This document shows, piece by piece, positions 731-21,148 of a stretch of DNA of 21,289 bases. Position 1 is the stretch's first letter. The number at the start of each line of letters is the position of its first letter. The translations under genes and the position numbers were made by a program. Below the pieces are notes generated by a model, which worked only from the letters and a program-made list of their open reading frames with translations, did no database searches and had not been told where the DNA came from. Origin of the DNA: a virus; IMG/VR virus record IMGVR_UViG_3300017989_000498, positions 1 to 21,289 of that record. One strand, written 5' to 3'.

Positions 731-3037
731 CTATAATGCTTGACGAGGTTGTGGTGAAACCCTATCTCATCTTAGCCTAAAGTTTCTAACTGATACAAAA
801 TAGTCGTTGTCGCTAGTGTATCACCAAACTTCTATTGTATCTCATGCTGATGCTTCAATATATTCACTAAATCAAACCCAAGAAGTTCCTGTTGTTGTCC
901 TAGGCGTACCAACTGCAGCTCAGTTTATATATATAGTAAATGTTCAACTGTATGATGGTCATCACACACCCTCCCTTATTTCGAAATATACATTATATAA
1001 AAAGTCTCTATCAACTTCTATAGATTTACACATAACGGCAGTTGAGCCAGAACTATTAAGTATAGATACCGAAGCGTCGTCTGAAATCATATTGTAATTT
1101 TCTCAAGGAACATACAAATCTTCTCATCAGTCAACATACAGCTGTGTGTCGGATATAGAGTGTCAGATTACAAATCTATTCGTACCCTCAGAAGCACCAA
1201 TTGTTCATGGGGTGTCTTGTAAGAAATAAGTAACAGGTCAATCGTAAGACAGTCAAGAGAAGTTTTCATTTATCCCATACGTAGTACATATTACATTTTC
1301 TCATTCACTTTTTGTTTCTGTGGCTGCTCTTATTTTGAATGGTAGCTTATACTGATATGTTGCATCAGCTAAAGACAGCAATATTTCGTGCATCATAGAA
1401 CTATCTGTATATATGAATTTATCATCGTCTATAGCACCATAGGAACCTCCGTCATATAATATAGTTCATCTTGTTGTTGTATTGTCGTTGCTGTATCATA
1501 CTATAAAATAGTTGGCAGCATTTACTGTTTCAGAACCATATGTTCATTGGAATAATACCAAATAACACGGTCAATCATAAGAAAACGACCCATTAAATGT
1601 CAGCGATTCGTCTGCAGGTATTAGCTCAGTATCTATACTAACAATATTATAACCATCAGAATTATTTAATCCTCTCAAACTTCAAGTTATATAATCGAAG
1701 TTAGTTCCAGAAGGAAATGAAGCACCACCATCTCTTGCTCTTGTATAATTACCGAGGTCATCATCAACTTCAACCCTGAAATAATCCCCACTATTTATAA
1801 CAGTATTTCAAGAGAAAGTAACGGTGGTACCAGCAAAATTTGTAGTTTCTTCTAATATCATACCATCGTCATTTTTTATCATACCACGAGTGGCTCACGA
1901 CACATTCACATCTAATTCCAAGCTTTTTATTCTTATATCTCAATTAGCTTGTAGTCTATATCAACCAGCTCATTCATTAGAAGTTGTAGAACTATGATTA
2001 TTACCATTTGCGTCCGTTACTTCATCACAATTCGTCAAAGAACCAATAGCAACACTACCTTCTGCGTTAGGGTCTACTAAATTTCAACTAGGTTCAGAAC
2101 CACTGACGGTTTCTACCCTAAATCAAAAATCTACGGAAGGAGTTCACTTATATCAAACAGCTAATTTTAAGTCATCTCAAGATACACCATTCATGAATAT
2201 TTTTTTAACAACTCTAGTGTTAGCAGAAACATCTCATACATTTTGTCGTCTATTTACATTACTATAAGCTCTTTCTATCTCTGGAAATAACACATCTCAA
2301 GCCGTTGCATCTTCTCATAATTTATATGTGTCTTTATCTACCAAAGATTCAGCTCATGTGGCTTGCACTATTTGGTCATCTACATATTTCTTGGGAGCAA
2401 GTTCTCTGTCATGAACAGGAGCTAAATAAGCTTGTTGATACAATCTTAATGCTGTTACTATTCCTGAAAACACACCATTAGCTCATTCAACATTACCTGA
2501 AGTAATAATGCTTTGTGTAAGATTAGATAGGTCTGCTAAGTCTCCCTTTATCTGTGGATAATCTCTTAAATCAACCTTTGTCGGTCAACTGGTTATTTCA
2601 TATAATTTTATATAGTTTCAATGACTAGGATAACTCGTTTCGGATTTTATAGTACCAATATTAAGTCATTGTGCATAATCTGTACTTGGTGGAGTATCCT
2701 CAATTAACGTTGGGTCTTGAACAAGGGCATCATCAATCTCAATAAATATCTTTCTACCAACAGAAACGTTAACACTAACTGTGTCAGAACTTTGGAATAT
2801 TACATAGAACTCTTGGTTTGCTATTGGCTGGCTTGCTGTTCTCGTACATTTAACTATAGCAGTTCCAGCTGAAAGCTCTCATGCTCACAAATCCAAATCA
2901 AACTCAGGCTTGCTAGACAAGTCGCTAAACAACACTCACGTTGTAGCTCATTGTAAATACTTCTGTATTTTAGAAAAATCGTAATCTGAGTTCAACTGCG
3001 TATTGTTGCTGTTTATCATAGAAGTTCTTTGTACCAT
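731..3037 (-). CDS. Large tail fibre / receptor-binding protein
   Basis: A 768-residue beta-rich protein from ATG 3037. The coding pattern clearly continues upstream in frame to about 3106 (ANLVESKHSKPILKITLS), with no ATG, GTG or TTG there, so the true start may be an ATT (3104-3106) inside the hub gene. Notable features: a fibre-type segment DRELAPKKYVDDQ (about residue 205-220), then repeated beta domains with Asn, Ser, Gly and Asp, and at the C-terminus FTIYINGAA, GTSWVGFSEYIEASAG and VSVRNFRLRGD, resembling carbohydrate-binding jelly-roll folds. It carries over 40 TGA glycines, the densest use in the window. It likely contacts the host surface; no depolymerase motif was recognised. Confidence 0.85.
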
Positions 3038-11081: not shown

Positions 11082-12254
11082 CTATACAGTCACGTTGATA
11101 CCAGCAACTATAGAAGGCTCTGTGATACCAGCCTTTTTGTTGATGTTATCGAATCCGAAATACTGTCTAGCTTTGAAGAGTACACCTCTTTCGATGTCTC
11201 TGATGATATCGTATTCGAGTGCAGAACCGAATCCGTGTTGGATAACGTTTCTCTTAGCGATAACGATTTGACCCTTCGTGTTGTTTGAAGGAGTCGCACC
11301 AGATAGTTTACCATCAGCTTCAGTTTTTCTCATGTTTCTAGTAACAAACAAGTCCATACCAGCGATGTTCGTAAGAGCACCAGTAGTAATTGTTGATTGT
11401 CTACCATTGATAGAGAGGTCTTTGAAGTCTGAGAGTTTCATGAACGCATGGTAAGTAGCGTTGTCCATGATGATGATTCTATCCATTGGGTCTACGTCAC
11501 TTCTGAAGTATCCAGCCAATGTGAAGATGTCATCAGTAGAAGGAGCTCCAATGTTAAGGTAGTCTACTCCAGCAGAACCATTGATTGGTTGCTTTCTTAG
11601 ACCATTGTCGAAGAAGTATCTTCTGTCGAGTGCACCATCTGCAAATGTAGTAGTAGCCAATTGGTCATCAGAGTTGATGTTACCAGTTGAAGTTGCTGTA
11701 CTATCTGCATTAAGTACGATGTCTTCAATGTTGAATAGGAATTGTCTAGACATCTCTCCTTGAAGTCGTGCAAGCACGTCAATAACTGAGAATTGTTCTA
11801 GCTTATCAGAGATACCAGCTGTGTAGATAAGAGGCTTCTGTTGGATAGTAGCTCTTGCTGTGTCAGCTTGTCTGATAGGAGTTCCGTTAGCGTAAACGCT
11901 AGATGAAGTATCCCATTCTTCTGCACCTCTAACGTTTCCTACTTCACCAGTGATTGGTTTTTCAGTAACGAGCTGTAGGTTAGAACCAACAAATCCTTCA
12001 GAGAGAGCTCCTAGGAATGTGTCTTTTCTACCTGAGGCATCAATAAGTCCTTGAAGACCTTGTGTAGTAGGAATAAGTTCTGCTCCTCCTCCAGTTGAAC
12101 CAGAGTTAAGTGGTGCAGCTTTTTCCTGCATTTCCTCGAATTGCTTCATTTCTTCGAGTAGTTTTGCGTCAGCGTCAGCAACAGACTTTCCAGCTTTTTC
12201 AACTAGATGTCTTGCTTTAGCTTCCTTAATTTGTTCTGCTAATTGTTTAAGCAT
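11082..12254 (-). CDS. Major capsid protein, HK97 fold
   Basis: A 390-residue protein directly after the protease/scaffold gene. Residues 1-45 are a charged helix (delta-domain-like), followed by a Gly-rich hinge (NSGSTGGGAELIP), the likely protease cleavage zone. The body shows HK97-family features: the E-loop-like stretch EVGNVRGAEEWDTSS, the spine helix SDKLEQFSVIDVLARLQGEM, FLFNIEDIVLNADS, and the C-terminal HGFGSALEYDIIRDIERG followed by VLFKARQYFGFD. All of its roughly 36 glycines are GGN and none is TGA, unlike its neighbours. One CGA is present (VLA-x-LQGEM), where Arg looks at least as natural as Trp. An intrinsic terminator follows the TAG immediately. Confidence 0.93.
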   Translation of the reverse strand: MLKQLAEQIKEAKARHLVEKAGKSVADADAKLLEEMKQFEEMQEKAAPLNSGSTGGGAELIPTTQGLQGLIDASGRKDTFLGALSEGFVGSNLQLVTEKPITGEVGNVRGAEEWDTSSSVYANGTPIRQADTARATIQQKPLIYTAGISDKLEQFSVIDVLARLQGEMSRQFLFNIEDIVLNADSTATSTGNINSDDQLATTTFADGALDRRYFFDNGLRKQPINGSAGVDYLNIGAPSTDDIFTLAGYFRSDVDPMDRIIIMDNATYHAFMKLSDFKDLSINGRQSTITTGALTNIAGMDLFVTRNMRKTEADGKLSGATPSNNTKGQIVIAKRNVIQHGFGSALEYDIIRDIERGVLFKARQYFGFDNINKKAGITEPSIVAGINVTV

Positions 12255-12282: not shown

Positions 12283-14373
12283 TTAAGACATTCCGTCTTT
12301 CGCAGCCTGTAAGTCCATTGCTAATTTGGACATAGGTTTTGCGTCGGCAGTAAAGAGTTGCCCCTTTCTTGCCCAAGTGTTTCTTGCTCTTTCAATGATT
12401 TCGTTTTTCACTTCAAGAGACTTTGTGAGTTCTGTGATAGTTTCACTAGACTCATTTAGAAGCTCTTTAGCTTCAATTAACTCGCTTTCTGCCTCATGGA
12501 GACTTTCTGTGAGTTGTTTTACCTGTGTTTCAAGGTCACTAATTGCTTTACTTTCGGTACCCGTATTCTCAGGGTTTTGTGGCGTATCTCAGCCATTCAC
12601 CTTTCCTGTTAATATATTTCTAACATTTTCTGGTGCGTAATCAAGTTTTACTGAAGTTCATCTGTTTGCTGGAGTTGTCACAAACGAATATTCCAACCAA
12701 TCCAACTTAGTAATTACCATTCTGTACTTCTCGTATAGTTCAAAGTATTCTGCGAACGTTTCAACTTCTTCCATCTTTTTTCTAAATTGGTCTCTTGTTA
12801 TCATTTCACCTGTTTCTCTATCTTCGTATTTCCAATCCATTGGTATAAACCCAATAGAGAGTCATCTGTATAATCCCTTAGAAGCTTTGTTATCTGTGTA
12901 TTCATCGTAGATATATCCACCAACCTTAACCTGTGTATCTTCTACCTTAACCCATAATGGCAATCCAATAGGGTCTGATTTGTTGTGAGACAATAGAATA
13001 ACACCATTCTTAACAAAGTTATTTAGTTGCCCTTTGAAAGCTTCTGGCAATACTCTACTATCGTATCTATCTACACTGTCATCAGACACAACTCATTCAA
13101 AGTACATAGCACCTTGTGGAACTTTGTTTTTGTATTGTGAAGGAACTGGTATAAATTTAACTTCCTGTTCTACATCAAGAGTAGCTTTCGCCTCCTTCTC
13201 GCCAAGTCCTTGCGACTTCGCTTCCATAAGGTCTAATGTCTTAGCTTGTGTTTCTGGAGCATCTTCTGTTTCAGCTTCGTTTTCTTCATCAGCCTCAACT
13301 TCCTCCACTTCTTCTTCTGCATCTTCCTTATCTTCTTTTTCGTCACTATCGCCACTGGCTTCTTCTTCTGTTTCTTGCACTTCCTCTTGTTCAACTTCTT
13401 CATTATTTTCGTCAGCTTGTTCTTCTTCATTTTCTTTCTTTTCCTCCTCTACTTCTTCTGTAGGAGCTCCGTCCTCAGTTTCATCTTCAGGCTCTTCTTC
13501 ATTTTCTACATCAGCAGGAACTTCTTCTTGTTCCTCTTCTTGTTCCTCAGTTTCTGTTTCTTGTTCTTCTTCTGAAGTCTCCTCTTCGCTTTCTTGGTTA
13601 TCTTCTTCCGAAACTTCATGTTCGTTGTTATCTTTTTCTTCAACTTCCTCGTTAGAAGCCTCTGGCGTTTCTTCTTCTGATGTTTCAACAACTTCTTCTT
13701 CCTCAACTTCTTCCACCAATTCTACATCTTCTCCCATCTCTTTTGTTTTAGAGACAAGTGTTTTGAAACTCTTGTATAGTGGGAAGTCTTCTTCTTTTTC
13801 TACTTGGAACAATTCTTTGTATTCATCGTCAGACATTCCTTCTGGAATTTCATTTATGTTCTTAATAGAAGCTTTCGCATTCATAGGAACAGACACAAGA
13901 GATACTTCAAATAATTCAAGGTCAGTAATAACACGAACGTTATATCTTTTCCCATCAATTTCCATTGTTCTCTTTTCCGACTCTTTTACTCTGTAACCAA
14001 ACGACATAGTCTTAATAACACCTGTTCTGAGTTTTTGGAATACGTTATCGGTATCAATCTTAACTATTCCTTTAACTCGAAAACCAACATCGTCGATACC
14101 AGCTTCAACAATACTTCCTACTGGCTTATTCTCATCGTGTTGTAAGAATAGCTGCGGATTTTGCATAAACTCATTCAACGTTTTCTCGAACGCTTTCGGT
14201 TCAGTAATGTCAAATCATCTGTCTGGGTGTTTAGTTGAAGCATACCCTTCAAACTCTAAACCCTTGTATTCATTTCAATCTTCTCAAATGTAAGTAACTT
14301 CTTTTATAGATGGGCTTCAATCGTTTTGTTTAATCCCAACTTTAAAGAAACTCTCCAATGCTTTTTTACTCAT
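12283..14373 (-). CDS. Tandem prohead protease fused to acidic linker and coiled-coil scaffold
   Basis: A 696-residue open frame before the major capsid gene. Residues 41-170 form a complete HK97-type (U35) prohead protease: GYASTKHPDRGFD, the catalytic His in LFLQHDENKP (H79), the catalytic Ser in KTMSFGY (S124), and FEVSLVSVPMNAKA. Residues about 215-380 are an extreme Glu/Asp-rich low-complexity linker. Residues about 405-560 are a second complete protease: MYFEGVVSDDSVDRYDS, ILLSHNKSDPIG (H463), YRGLSIGF (S506), SFVTTPANRG. The C-terminal 100 residues are heptad-like coiled coil, as in scaffolds. These proteases cleave scaffold and capsid N-termini inside the prohead. TGA=Gly keeps the frame open at the domain-2 start and at LSIGF. 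ATG 14373 was chosen because domain 1 then has a normal N-terminus; ATG 14502 is possible. I saw no internal stop or frame break. Confidence 0.88.
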
Positions 14374-14519
14374 TACCATGTATAGTGGATAAAAACAATC
14401 GTATCATTTGGCGACCATGAGCAGTAATGCAGCCCACATAATACCGCAACCGTCATCGTCGCCATATCATAGGATTATACCCCCATAATAACTTTGTCGC
14501 ATAACGCTTGCAACTTTTT
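14374..14519 (-). other. In-frame open extension upstream of the protease
   Basis: A 146-bp gap between portal and the chosen protease start. It is open in the protease frame from just after the portal stop, with an ATG at 14502 that would add 43 residues (starting MRQSYYGGIILGYGDDDG, including IMWAALLLMVAKGY, rich in aromatic and hydrophobic residues). It contains two in-frame TGA. No ribosome-binding site is evident for either start, and the extension does not resemble protease N-termini. It may be a true N-terminal extension, a short separate peptide, or untranslated spacer. Confidence 0.4.
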
Positions 14520-15833
14520 TTAACTATCGCCGTTATTCCCTGCAATGCCCTGTCAGTCCATTCCGTTTTCTTGCCTTTCATCTATGAACTTCTCACTAGA
14601 TGAGATTGTGAACTTAGACATCTCTTCTGGAAGTCCTTCGATAGGCATATCGTATTCTTTTCTAAATTCCTCCCTACTTATACAACCTCATCTAACCAAT
14701 TCAAGAGATAACTTCATATCCTCGTATTCATTCGAGAATTTGTCGTTAACAGAAACAATCCTGTATCACTCAAACCCTCAGTTTGGGAAAAGGAATTTCT
14801 TAACACAAGTCGTAAGGAAGTTGTTTAGTATGTCGGCGTATTCAGAAATCTTAACGTTACCTTGTATTTGGGAAACAGAACTAATCTCAGCCCTACTTCC
14901 ACCTCATTCAACATTATATCAAATAAGTCTTTTGTCCAAACCAAAAGTAAGTCAAACTCTTGTGTCAATGTATTTTCTTAAATCTAATAGTTGGTTTTCG
15001 TTACTCTTCATTTCAATAACCTTAACATCTTCTACTCAAGCAGAAATGATTGGTTTGTTGTTGTTCTTTGAGCCAGCATACTTCTCTCTCCATTGTTTCT
15101 TGAAGTTTTCAAGCTCTTGGCTGTTCTGTAATAGAGAGTCCGATAACCTCACTATCATTCAAGGTCTAGCGTTGTTCTCAAAGTAATAGAAATTTGTCTT
15201 GCTTGCTTCAGAGTCCGTCATAGCGTCAACCAACAACCCTTGGTACATAGAAACTCATTGATACGGAAGGTCGTGGTCATAGAAAACTATATCATCAACA
15301 ATATCTTCTGGGCTAAATTCGTCAGCGTGTGTTCTGTCTGCTCAACCAGAATAGAAATACTTAATCGGTTCTCCATACTTGTTTATATCTATTTTCATTC
15401 CCCTGCTGTCTAGGACTTTCAGTTTCGTCTCACCAAGCATATTTATCTTACCAACTATACCGAACAGTTGCCCAGAACAGAAAGCCTGCGTATATACTTG
15501 TTGTTTCAATATATCTAAGTCTTGGTGTCATATAAACTTATATATCTCTTCCAATAGGCTTTCGTTGTCAACTATCTCGTTATTCATGTCATAAACAACA
15601 AATCCGTGTTTCGCGACCATCTTAACAATCTTTCTGTAATAACTGTTTATTGTTAGGTTATTCTTATGTATGTCGTAGAACGACTGTTTTGTGAAACGAA
15701 CATTACCACAAGCTGAGAGATTATCTCCAACGTAGCTTCGGTTACTTCCCATTATACTGTTGTAATACTTTACTTCGCTTGTTCCTTGTGCTTTACCAGT
15801 CACAAACGATTTGATATTATCTATAATAGACAT
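14520..15833 (-). CDS. Portal protein
   Basis: A 437-residue protein between terminase and the protease, in the position and size of siphovirus portals (HK97/SPP1-like), which form the dodecameric ring through which DNA enters and leaves the capsid. The N-terminus holds FVTGKAQGTSEVKYYNSIM; the middle has the wing/stem region ending GGSRAEISSVQIQGNVKISE. The C-terminal clip and crown part has ELVR-G-CISREEFRKEYDMP, matching the usual pattern of a Gly turn, an E/D-rich helix and a 'glP' motif. About a dozen TGA codons read as Gly (for example GADRTHADEF and PGMIVRLSD). ATG with a nearby purine tract; the stop is TAA. Confidence 0.88.
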
Positions 15834-15975: not shown

Positions 15976-17205
15976 CTATATATCCACAACCACTGCCGTC
16001 TTCTTGCCTGTGTTCAAATACCAAACAACATAACGCATCGCATCTAAAAGGTGGTCATCACTTTGAGCTGGAACGTCCAACGACTTACCTGTCTTTTTGT
16101 CTTCTAACCAACAATATCCTGATGATTCTTTGTATAGGTTCTCTCAGTTTATATGTATTCTGTGCTCCTTCACTTTGTTAATACCCTCGTATACAGAGTT
16201 CTTTGGTTTACTTACCCCTATAATATTATATCACGCTTGCTTTATGTCTTCTATCATCTCTGGTCTTGCACTATCTGCTATTATCAGCTTACTCTTATCT
16301 ATTTTAAGATTGTTCATTCTTATAATCAAATCTTTTGCTGTAAGCTCTCTTTCATACAAAAGTTCTTGTACAAACAAATCTTTTTTCTCGTCTATATCCA
16401 TAATAGATACACCAACCAAGGCAGTAGGGTCGTTATATCAAAAGTCTAACCCATAATAATCAGGAACAATTGGGTAATCAAATACGTTGAACGACGGGTA
16501 TATCTGTCACTTCAGCCCCTGTCCCCAAAGATTTAGTGCATATATCTTATACTTCTCTGGGTTGGTTATCTTCATTCTCTCCAGGTTGGCTAGATACGCT
16601 TCACCAACAAACTTATTATCTCGAGCAGTTTTCTCTATTCGTACTGTTGAGCTTTTGAAAGCCTCGCTATCTTGAATCTCTGTCTTAAGCCAATGGGTGT
16701 CAAGAATAGGATTGAACGTGCAAATGATTTTATGGTTAGTTCATCACCTCAAACGCAGGTCTAGCTGTGTGAACTCATCAAACGAAATCTCTGTAGCTTC
16801 TTCCACTCGTATTCGGTCAAGTCCTGCAACGGACTTAATCTTCTCTTCGTCATCTAGTCAGAACATATTTATAAGACCTCCCGACCTTGAATTAACAGTT
16901 AGGTTTTCTTTGGCTTCTACTATATCAGATACCTGCCAATCTCTTATAAGGTCTTTGAATAGCTGTAAACAAGAAGCTCTTAGTGTTGCTCTAATCTTTC
17001 TGAATACTCAAATTCTGTAATTATCCATGCAGTTCTGCAACAGTATCTGTCATACCAAGTGCGACTTACCTGCTCCAGCTCCACCCTTCAAGAAAATATA
17101 TCTTACGCTCTCGTCGTATAGTGCTTTAGTAAATTCTTCGTACCAATCTACATATATGGAAGTGTCCCGAAAGTCTATACGTGGTTTTGTGTTTACTGTA
17201 TCCAT
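15976..17205 (-). CDS. terL: Terminase large subunit (ATPase/nuclease)
   Basis: A 409-residue packaging motor. Walker A is GGAGAGKS (residues 41-48). The adenine-side block FGLDDEEKIKSVAG is followed by Walker B in the segment VEEATE (134-139), and then by LRLRGG and the coupling region CTFNP. The nuclease domain begins with GLDFGYNDPTAL, whose Asp is the first metal ligand, and continues to the late D-D pair in SDDHLLDAMRY. TGA falls on invariant glycines (LRLRG, DFGYNDP, IKQAGYNI). In DRI-x-VEEATE the x is CGA where most relatives have Trp. Length is normal for this terminase class. It starts 21 bp after the small subunit stop. It cuts concatemeric DNA and pumps it into the prohead through the portal. 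Confidence 0.96.
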
Positions 17206-18069: not shown

Positions 18070-18255
18070 TTATTTCTTATCTTTTTCTCGAAATATCGCT
18101 AGTATTAGACATATAGCCCAAAATAATCAAGACCATCATAGGAATAGGTTCAGTATCATTATCCCTTGTCTTCTTTTGGTGTCTAAGGCATACGCAACAA
18201 ACGTAGGCACAAAGTAAAGCAGTAATCAGAATATTAAGAATACAATAGTTTCCAT
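18070..18255 (-). CDS. imm: Superinfection immunity (Imm-type) membrane protein
   Basis: A 61-residue inner-membrane protein with two hydrophobic helices (about residues 4-22 and 31-53) and a short charged tail. The pattern YFVPTFVAYAL, a basic turn, then LNLFLGW matches the Imm_superinfect family, whose T4 founding member stops DNA entry from later-arriving related phage. The Gly of LFLGW is TGA followed by TGG for Trp, a clean demonstration that TGA is Gly and not Trp here. Its ATG overlaps the sulfotransferase stop. Related small proteins of this family are also found as bacterial chromosomal genes of unclear role, so phage exclusion is likely but not proven. Confidence 0.85.
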
Positions 18256-18872
18256 TATATTGTCATTATATAGTGATAAAATTTGTCGTCTGCTTGTGTG
18301 AGATATTCTCTCTCCTCTCTTGTGAGGTGATTGAGATAATCTTTTTCGATATAGAACTTATAATCAAAGTCTATTCATTTCTTTCTTGTTCAATCTCATC
18401 ATCAATCTATAATTCGTCAGTCAACATCATTCTTAATTGGTACTACAACATTTATTTCTGAGCCTCATATGTTTAGTCAAGATTCTAATTCGAGCTTTGG
18501 GGCTTCTGTTAGCTTTTGTCTTAATAGTTCATCGTATGAAACAGTGTAGAAGCTACGATTCTTGTTTAGTAGCTGTCTTGCTATAATCTTTTGTGATATG
18601 TAGTATTCAGCAGCTTGATACAGGAATCCTTTATATGTTGCATCTGCCTTTCAGGTAGACATATATCTCTTGTAAGAATAGTATCGCATGTGTATTGGCT
18701 TTCGGACACTTACTATTATGTCCTCTTCGCCAAACTGTTTCATATCTGGCAATCAATGTTTTCGTCATCATTTTGTTATGCTGATTTCTCGTTCGGTGTT
18801 CTTTCTTAGGAGTTCTGTTACATAATTTGTTCAGGATTTTTGTAATCAATGAACCGTCGCTGTTTTTATCAT
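18255..18872 (-). CDS. Small sulfotransferase-like P-loop protein
   Basis: A 205-residue protein. The N-terminus TVHGLQKSGTNYVTELL (residues 6-22) matches the 5'-phosphosulfate-binding P-loop of PAPS sulfotransferases (typically P-[KR]-[ST]-G-T-[TN]). A strand with VSV-x-KP (54-59) followed by YYSYKRY (64-70) matches the 3'-phosphate-binding region, Ser66 being the expected Ser. These enzymes move a sulfuryl group from PAPS onto a hydroxyl, often of a sugar. At about 205 residues it is at the short end of the family. TGA occurs at several glycines, including a run of three near residue 150. CGA codons at 28, 37, 57 and 63 are ambiguous; GG-x-KHG (37) looks like a Trp site, while 57 would be Arg or Lys in classical family members. 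The stop overlaps the Imm start. An alternative is a sulfotransferase-fold kinase-like P-loop protein. Confidence 0.7.
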
Positions 18873-19438: not shown

Positions 19439-19765
19439 CTACCTACGATAAGTAAATTCTTCACCAAATATGTCATCGTGTAAAATGTTAAATCTGTCTT
19501 GCTTGCAAAAGTACGTTGGGTGTATTAACTTCACAGTCTCTCAGTTGAATTGTTTTCAGTTCAGGAATTGATTGGCAAACTCAGCATAATTATCTTCTCT
19601 AACAAATACGGTCGTATATCAGTTTTCGAACTCTATTCTTACTTTTATTATATCACGTAAACATCTCATTATCTTTGAGGCAGTCTCACTGCTAATTTCT
19701 TTGTTACGTAATTCTTCATAGGTGAGTTCTTCTAAATCTTTTTTTGTGTAGTCTGTTTTATCCAT
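19439..19765 (-). CDS. Hypothetical protein, 108 residues
   Basis: An open frame of 108 residues starting at an ATG that overlaps the last codons of the glycosyltransferase gene (ATGGATAA) and ending in TAG. The N-terminal third is acidic and probably helical (DLEELTYEELRNKEISSET). The rest looks mixed alpha/beta with aromatic residues (GYTTVFVREDNYAEF, LIHPTYFC). Three TGA codons read as Gly; there is no CGA. No family recognised. Its overlap with the glycosyltransferase and direct abutment to the following gene suggest co-translation and a role tied to the accessory cassette rather than to virion structure. Confidence 0.75.
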
Positions 19766-20522
19766 GTTGGAACTCTATTGGAGTAAATCATTGAGCTACT
19801 GCAGATTTATAGAATTGTTGATATACGTCTTTCTGCGTGTTGTAATTAGCAACTTTATCTAATCATAGCTGTGGGTCTGTGTTTCATCGAGTTCTTTTGT
19901 CTTCTGTCATTGCTGGGATATACGTATATATTCAATATTTTGAGGCTCTGTAACTTATTCGCAGTTCTTCTCAAGCACGTGGCTGAAAGTCTTTTGGAAA
20001 TTGGTCAAACATATAAGGGAGTATATCTCTTGGGAAAAATCGACTGTGTCAGCTTATATCGACCCTTATAGTTGAGGCTGGTCTGTTTTTAGTTTCGGTT
20101 ATTACTGTTCTATCAAACCTATTCTCTAGGCTTTTGAACAACGAACCTCGACTTCAATATATTCATGGGGTTGCTATACATTCTGTTAGACACTTCTCTA
20201 ACCAATACTCTCATGGGATAATATCGTCGTCTACTACAAAGACATATTCAGAATTGCAGTTGAAAGCAGAATAGAATCTTGACCAAACACCAAGATTTCT
20301 GTTGCACATCATTATTGTTGTCTTGTCTCGTAATCATAATTCTTCTGTTATTGATTTTATTCTATGGTATATTTCAAATTCGACTTCATCTGTTGCTGAG
20401 GTGGAGTTTGCCCACACTATGTATTCTGACGGCTCTATGCTTTGTTTTTGTAACGAAACTAACTGAGCTTTCAGGTTGTCTATCCTCTTAAAAACATTTA
20501 TTACAGCACAGATGTCTTTCAT
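19758..20522 (-). CDS. Family-2 (GT-A fold) glycosyltransferase
   Basis: A 254-residue protein that resembles family-2 glycosyltransferases. The N-terminus (AVINVFKRIDNL) is the nucleotide-sugar binding strand and helix. The metal-binding DxD motif appears as VFVVDDDIIP (D98-D100). The block GHS-x-FFPRDIL (158-168) and the catalytic-base region GEEL (184-187) followed by SKYG follow in the expected order. About eight in-frame TGA codons read as Gly. CGA occurs at residues 65, 125, 161, 188 and 212; positions 161 (GHS-x-FF) and 212 (T-x-GN) correspond to Trp in the related proteins I recall. The start overlaps the stop of the methyltransferase, and its stop overlaps the next start region. It most likely transfers a sugar in the cytoplasm; donor and acceptor cannot be told from sequence. 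Confidence in the family is high, in the substrate nil. Confidence 0.9.
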
Positions 20523-21148
20523 TATTCTTGATAAGTGAAATAAACGGTCTTGTTCTTCTCTCTAGAGAATAATTTTACATAACCTAATTGCAATATATAT
20601 TGAAAAACCTCGTCGTCGTTTACCTCTACCATTAAATCTGGTTTATACAACTTGATTGTTTTCTCTCATCATTTCAGAACTTGTAATTCCACTCACTCAA
20701 CATCAACCTTTATTAATTTTATCTCAGGGAAATACATAGAATCCAATGTTTTTGTTTTCATTATTTCTTGCCTTCAATCGTCTTTTATTTTTTTTATCTT
20801 GTCTCAGCCCCTATTGTTTTGGTTTACTTTTATGCCAAAGGGGGCTTCCCTGTCTAACAACGCTATTTGGTGTATGGTTATCTCGTATTTATCTGTATTT
20901 TTTACCAATAATTCGTAGTTATCTGGAGACGGCTCAAATGCTATTACGTCATTTCACTTTCTTGCTCGATATTGTGAATGGTTTCAGATGTTTGCTCATA
21001 TATCGAGAATAACTCATTCTTTCTTACCAACTCTCTCTTGTGAAAATTTCAAATAATCTATTTCATAATAATCTCATTCTCTCGCTATATGTCTTCAAAT
21101 ATAGTCATTGTGTGTTTCTATTGTTATTCATGCGATGTTGTGTCTCAT
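20522..21148 (-). CDS. FkbM-family SAM-dependent methyltransferase
   Basis: A 208-residue protein with the two hallmarks of FkbM methyltransferases, which O-methylate sugars or polyketides using S-adenosylmethionine. Motif I, VILDIGANIGNH (residues 46-57), forms the SAM-binding loop and is followed by VIAFEPSPDNYELL (68-81). The conserved C-terminal block KVDVEGVELQVLKGG spans residues 147-161. Three of its glycines, plus two in motif I, are encoded by TGA, so this gene is among the best proofs of the TGA=Gly code. A CGA codon at residue 61 (QY-x-A) sits where homologues usually have an aromatic residue. ATG was chosen because an in-frame TAA lies just upstream. The stop overlaps the next ATG (TAATG), indicating translational coupling to the glycosyltransferase. 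The likely substrate is a glycan made or modified by that partner; this is inference. Confidence 0.9.

Follow-up and report, generated by a model that had tools for sequence, protein, structure and literature searches.

Head proteases of phages are related to those of herpesviruses, and it is still debated how these enzymes are activated and confined in the procapsid. In the herpesvirus assemblin-scaffold protein UL26 and in the gpO type of phage P2, a scaffold fused to the protease binds the capsid protein, and self-cleavage removes it. For the HK97 gp4-type prohead proteases (Pfam PF04586, Peptidase_S78; MEROPS S78), the capsid protein of HK97 is cut at K103/S104 (PMC10275583). The prohead protease gp245 of phage SPN3US auto-cleaves its C-terminal propeptide (PMC7411985).

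The locus described here lies in a metagenome-derived IMG/VR virus record (IMGVR_UViG_3300017989_000498), whose whole 21,289-base stretch was analysed and is called the window below. It shares with the HK97 gp4 type the fold, the His, Ser, and Glu residues and the portal-protease-capsid order, and its capsid and linker junctions imply Lys-directed cleavage. However, the window protein has two protease domains per chain, whereas HK97 and about 240 other viral loci have one per gene. The protease-scaffold fusion resembles UL26 and the P2 gpO type, and the assemblin fold is matched by the model of domain 2. These proteins differ in having one protease domain and no long Glu-rich tether between two proteases, and their sequence similarity to the window is very distant or absent. 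SPN3US gp245 is comparable in its auto-cleaved C-terminal propeptide but is a single-domain protease of a giant phage. We describe what looks like a real, and so far the single, case of tandem S78 domains in a fused protease-scaffold protein, with both activities and the cut sites predicted. With two different complete proteases on one scaffold, single-residue changes can ask whether the pair acts together, shares substrates or cuts sequentially.

Genetic code and gene neighbourhood

The genes of the window are mostly on the minus strand, and only with TGA as Gly (code 25) are their frames open. The standard code and a code with TAG as Gln were rejected since both leave broken frames. In-frame TGA codons fall on invariant Gly columns of the terminase large subunit (G116, G154, G256, and G325), and another falls on residue G427 of protease domain 2, where Gly is kept in 46 of 50 S78 domains. 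These positions make code 25 well supported. Under this code, the protease gene gives one continuous protein of 696 residues (Table 1). The gene order is terminase small subunit-like gene, terminase large subunit, portal, tandem protease, capsid protein, connector, small head-tail genes, and tape measure. The tandem gene thus adjoins the portal gene and an HK97-fold capsid gene, the neighbourhood expected of an S78 prohead protease. As part of our best overall explanation, the virus is probably a siphovirus-like tailed phage using code 25, and the gene product its prohead protease-scaffold protein.

Table 1. Positions of the tandem protease gene, its parts and the flanking head genes in the window (a slash marks the candidate cut)
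Feature	Position	Strand	Basis
Tandem prohead protease/scaffold fusion gene	12283..14373	-	696 aa, code 25; longest in-frame upstream extension to 14502
S78 domain 1, residues 41-174 (D51, H79, S124, E156)	13852..14253	-	Pfam 74.6 bits; at most 62% identity to relatives; AF2 pLDDT about 75-90
K171, Lys directly after domain 1, candidate cleavage site	13861..13863	-	Invariant Lys column in alignment A6; K-S in relatives, K-N in window
Glu-rich acidic linker, residues 206-375, predicted disordered	13249..13758	-	Composition; pLDDT 27-46; equivalent linker in relatives
Candidate Lys/Ser and Lys/Ala sites before domain 2, K386/S387 and K396/A397	13186..13218	-	K386 column conserved in alignment A6
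S78 domain 2 core, residues 422-576 (D435, H463, S506, E561)	12646..13110	-	Pfam 24.9 bits; conserved columns; AF2; Foldseek
Coiled-coil helix, residues 606-672, scaffold-like	12358..12558	-	AF2 pLDDT about 71-81; weak sequence match to relatives' tails
K609/A610 (ESKAIS), candidate site 87 aa before the C end	12547..12549	-	Counterpart of relatives' conserved junction site
Short C-terminal helix, residues 683-694, possible capsid-binding tail	12292..12327	-	AF2; aligned with relatives' C-terminal helices
Major capsid protein	11082..12254	-	PHROG_10 and PHROG_267, family alignment; N-arm junction EMQEK/AAPL aligned with relatives' ETK/ANE
Portal protein	14520..15833	-	Pfam Phage_portal 64.6 bits
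Terminase large subunit	15976..17205	-	Pfam Terminase_3 115 bits

Two S78 domains in one chain

An initial annotation, made from the sequence alone, had described two complete prohead protease domains in this frame and named H79/S124 and H463/S506 as the His/Ser pairs that they keep. Both the domains and the exact residues were recovered on the minus strand under code 25. When the protein was split at the linker and each half was scored, neither domain failed the Pfam Peptidase_S78 profile of the HK97 prohead protease (74.6 bits for domain 1 and 24.9 bits for domain 2, with a cut-off of 21 bits). The corresponding scores against PHROG_80, the head maturation protease family, were 124 and 61.5 bits. 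Each domain keeps its Asp, His, Ser, and Glu residues (Table 1), and H79, S124, and E156 of domain 1 sit in invariant alignment columns.

Domain 2 is the more divergent of the two. Compared with 50 other S78 domains, it keeps every fully invariant column (D435, H463, S506, G508, E561, S563, and V565) and 16 of the 24 columns that are at least 90% conserved, losing the other eight. Its AlphaFold2 model has a mean pLDDT of 83.5 with a core above 90. By sequence, no relative of solved structure was found. By Foldseek, the model matched prohead proteases (best E 6e-12) and, in the PDB, the herpesvirus proteases (assemblins; E from 6e-5). We infer that domain 2 is a divergent but catalytically complete S78 domain and that both domains are proteolytic.

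Single-domain relatives and the rarity of the tandem

Single-sequence scans with the protease, the terminase large subunit, and the capsid protein gave no close relatives. Alignment-based scans were productive: about 40 distinct relatives came from metagenomes of the rumen, the gut, and other sources. Nearly all use code 25, and they have the portal, protease, capsid protein, and connector in common. In their protease gene, a single S78 domain is followed by a long Glu-rich stretch and a coiled coil, and a short helix ends the protein. The window protein has a corresponding layout: Asp and Glu make up 92 of the 170 residues of its acidic linker, and the whole-protein AlphaFold2 model ends in a 67-residue helix (606-672) and the C-terminal helix (683-694). 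The window coil matched the profile of the relatives' tails weakly, at 8.9 bits against 2.1 for the reversed sequence. The coiled coil that the initial annotation placed just before the capsid gene corresponds to this long helix, and the capsid gene follows. The acidic linker and the coil are not special to this protein: together they are the normal architecture in this code-25 phage lineage, and only the extra protease domain needs explaining. In the literature searched, no description was found of this protease-acidic tether-coil architecture with its conserved Lys junction.

The single-domain code-25 relatives in IMG/VR (L174, L175, L177, L094, L102, and others) share domain 1, the acidic linker, and the flanking genes in their order, and they have a coiled coil and a conserved Lys junction where the window protein has its predicted coil and candidate Lys site. 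They differ in having no second S78 domain, and in some of them this part of the linker holds another small module. Such an unnamed module is present in L174, L175, and L177, which are the closest relatives, and also in L190; this indicates that the linker stretch tolerates inserted domains. The small module (...NEFVFNHYLYAEEGGFDKYYRRGYKMEDGDVVLEGENVEVES..., L174:4540-5000, also in L175, L177, and L190) has no Pfam match. The L190 copy weakly matched phrog_760, a family of unknown function, and L094 has yet another module in its linker.

The tandem arrangement had been called unusual, and our survey agrees, since no second case was found. Of the viral loci retrieved with an S78 domain, about 240 in all, only the window has two in one frame, and a second domain was present in none of about 150 bacterial S78 loci. 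Two bacterial phyla were surveyed as well, one with 399 genomes (101 of them carrying S78) and the other with 386 (11 carrying S78); neither set contained a neighbouring S78 pair. In the bacterial genome G427, two S78 pieces 260 bases apart proved to be halves of one split domain. Of the 960-1500 records with matches in a phage collection, a few at most had a second S78 place; in one of these, Salmonella phage 118970_sal3, the place that was inspected holds an ordinary protease of 217 aa. The scan for relatives of domain 2 reached 30-35% identity at best, with no tandem among the matches. As to whether other phage proteins have the same tandem order, as the initial annotation had asked, the single-domain relatives share the layout and none shares the tandem. 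No paper on tandem prohead proteases was found in the literature searched.

Candidate cleavage sites

A Lys followed by Ser or Asn and a hydrophobic residue lies 80-103 aa before the C end, at the acidic-to-coil junction, in 27 of 33 relatives. In 1000 regional shuffles, such a site occurred in 4.2 of the 33 on average and in 10 at most. The counterpart in the window, K609-A610-I, is at the expected place but has Ala where the relatives have Ser or Asn. In each of 22 full-length proteins, a Lys immediately follows the protease domain. In the adjacent capsid proteins, an [E/D]-x-K/A junction comes after a short N-terminal arm, with Lys in 32 of 35 relatives and Ala next in 29. Given the Lys cut of HK97, these conserved Lys junctions are promising cut-site candidates for this family of proteases, and the Lys sites of the window are likewise putative cut sites. 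With the conserved junction of the relatives, scaffold release can be tested directly in phages of code-25 bacteria.

The candidate sites K386, K396, and K609 bracket domain 2, the two before it having been picked after the alignment was seen. Processing at the bracketing Lys residues could release domain 2 as a fragment of about 210 residues, which is the typical length of prohead proteases. The initial annotation had asked whether the acidic part is an internal scaffold released by self-cleavage. This was right in direction: the acidic segment and the coil look like a fused scaffold, the conserved Lys/Ser-type junctions make self-release plausible, and the self-cleavage idea gains support from these predicted sites. 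Sequence and models together show both domains with their residues and folds, the overall layout, the Lys junctions and their conservation, and the synteny.

Proposed role in capsid assembly

In our best overall explanation, which we think probable, the protein has the usual layout of the lineage (N-terminal S78 domain, disordered acidic tether, coiled-coil scaffold, and capsid-binding tail) with a second S78 domain between the tether and the coil. This tandem is known from one genome only. During procapsid assembly, the tail and the coil would bind the N-arm of the capsid protein, which would bring both protease domains inside the procapsid. Upon activation, cuts by the proteases after Lys would fall at the junction of tether and coil, on either side of domain 2, and, at K45/A46, in the N-arm of the capsid protein. 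These cuts would remove the tether and the scaffold and leave two free protease domains of normal size. A more specific version is possible though doubtful: the protein may be a tandem-protease capsid assembly factor with two non-identical active S78 proteases on one scaffold, perhaps forming a built-in pseudo-dimer or dividing the substrates between them. Lys-directed self-cleavage would free each of the two, and the second would have been captured without loss of the first.

Origin of domain 2 and alternative readings

In the tree, domain 1 groups with L174, L175, and L177 at 100/100 inside the code-25 clade. Domain 2 forms a very long branch (4.28) elsewhere, and the trees do not support it as a recent copy of domain 1. 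Its identity to the S78 domains of the relatives is 26-36%. A regression over 91 pairs of relatives, which are non-independent, related the identity of the proteases to that of the portal and capsid proteins. For the window and L174, 45% identity was predicted; domain 1 has 62% (+3.9 SD) and domain 2 has 31% (-3.1 SD). Domain 1 is thus more L174-like than the divergence of portal and capsid predicts, suggesting its import beside another protease. In the simplest reading, domain 1 and the tether would have come by recombination, and domain 2 would be the resident protease or another foreign one. It is also likely, if less firmly so, that an L174-like protease-tether segment was fused in frame ahead of another protease-scaffold gene with both domains kept.

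The membership of both domains in the same family and the same gene would suit an old internal duplication of domain 1, since diverged, and the AU test did not reject a sister grouping of the two (p = 0.09), so such an old event is possible. We consider it unlikely, however, as the best trees hold the domains apart, with domain 1 among its relatives and domain 2 outside them. Whatever its source, domain 2 could be under relaxed selection, as its branch length hints, and could have lost activity in ways that the catalytic residues do not reveal. It may then be retained as a spacer in the structure, as a module that binds substrate, or as the partner of domain 1 in a pseudo-dimer, with domain 1 alone cutting. 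Herpesvirus assemblins are active as homodimers, and the match of the domain 2 fold to these dimeric enzymes fits such a role, as do its divergence and the eight lost columns. Yet drift would be expected in the absence of selection on catalysis, and every column invariant in the other S78 domains is kept; this makes a non-proteolytic domain 2 rather improbable, though somewhat less so than the duplication.

The metagenomic source of the contig, the GAA/GAG-rich repeats, and the single instance found would fit a chimeric assembly in which two phages were joined via the low-complexity Glu-rich region. Such a chimera is very improbable: the portal upstream matches L174, and so do, in the same order, the capsid, connector, and head-tail genes downstream; for the portal, domain 1, and the capsid protein, no relative matches better than L174. 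Domain 2 itself uses code 25, with its TGA at a conserved Gly, and the base composition is level across the gene. A tether normally follows a protease domain, and the chimera would need an in-frame join of the tether to where another gene starts. Scaffold genes are often nested, as in lambda C/Nu3 and herpesvirus UL26/UL26.5. An internal start would here give a separate domain 2-coil protein, hence two proteins from one frame. The tandem gene contains in-frame ATGs (e.g. M213 and M383), and those at 13227 (M383) and 13107 are just ahead of domain 2. However, the genes of this genome have no clear ribosome-binding-site signal, hence nothing marks these ATGs, and the one-domain proteins of the lineage are continuous. 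We therefore regard an internal start as unlikely too, and keep the fused tandem protein as the preferred reading.

Other features of the window

Across the window, the sequence upstream of gene starts is A/T-rich and shows no clear ribosome-binding-site signal. The gap of about 150 bases between the portal and protease genes (14374-14519) contains an in-frame upstream extension of the protease frame under code 25. It also holds a short overlapping frame that ends in a stop shared in part with the start of the protease gene, and translational coupling is possible. A host inference from the bacterial match L221 (JAFQOI010000086.1, a goat colon MAG) was dropped, since the MAG's size of 2.2 Mb casts doubt on a CPR host and the contig could be mis-binned. 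L221 is a code-25 phage contig inside this bacterial MAG, where it is probably mis-binned or else a sign of a wider host question. The TGA-richest frame of the window (731-3037; 768 aa with 43 in-frame TGA codons) had no relative among ten relatives compared. Near the head genes, sulfotransferase-like (18255-18872), glycosyltransferase-like (19758-20522), and FkbM-type methyltransferase-like (20522-21148) proteins were suggested by eye.
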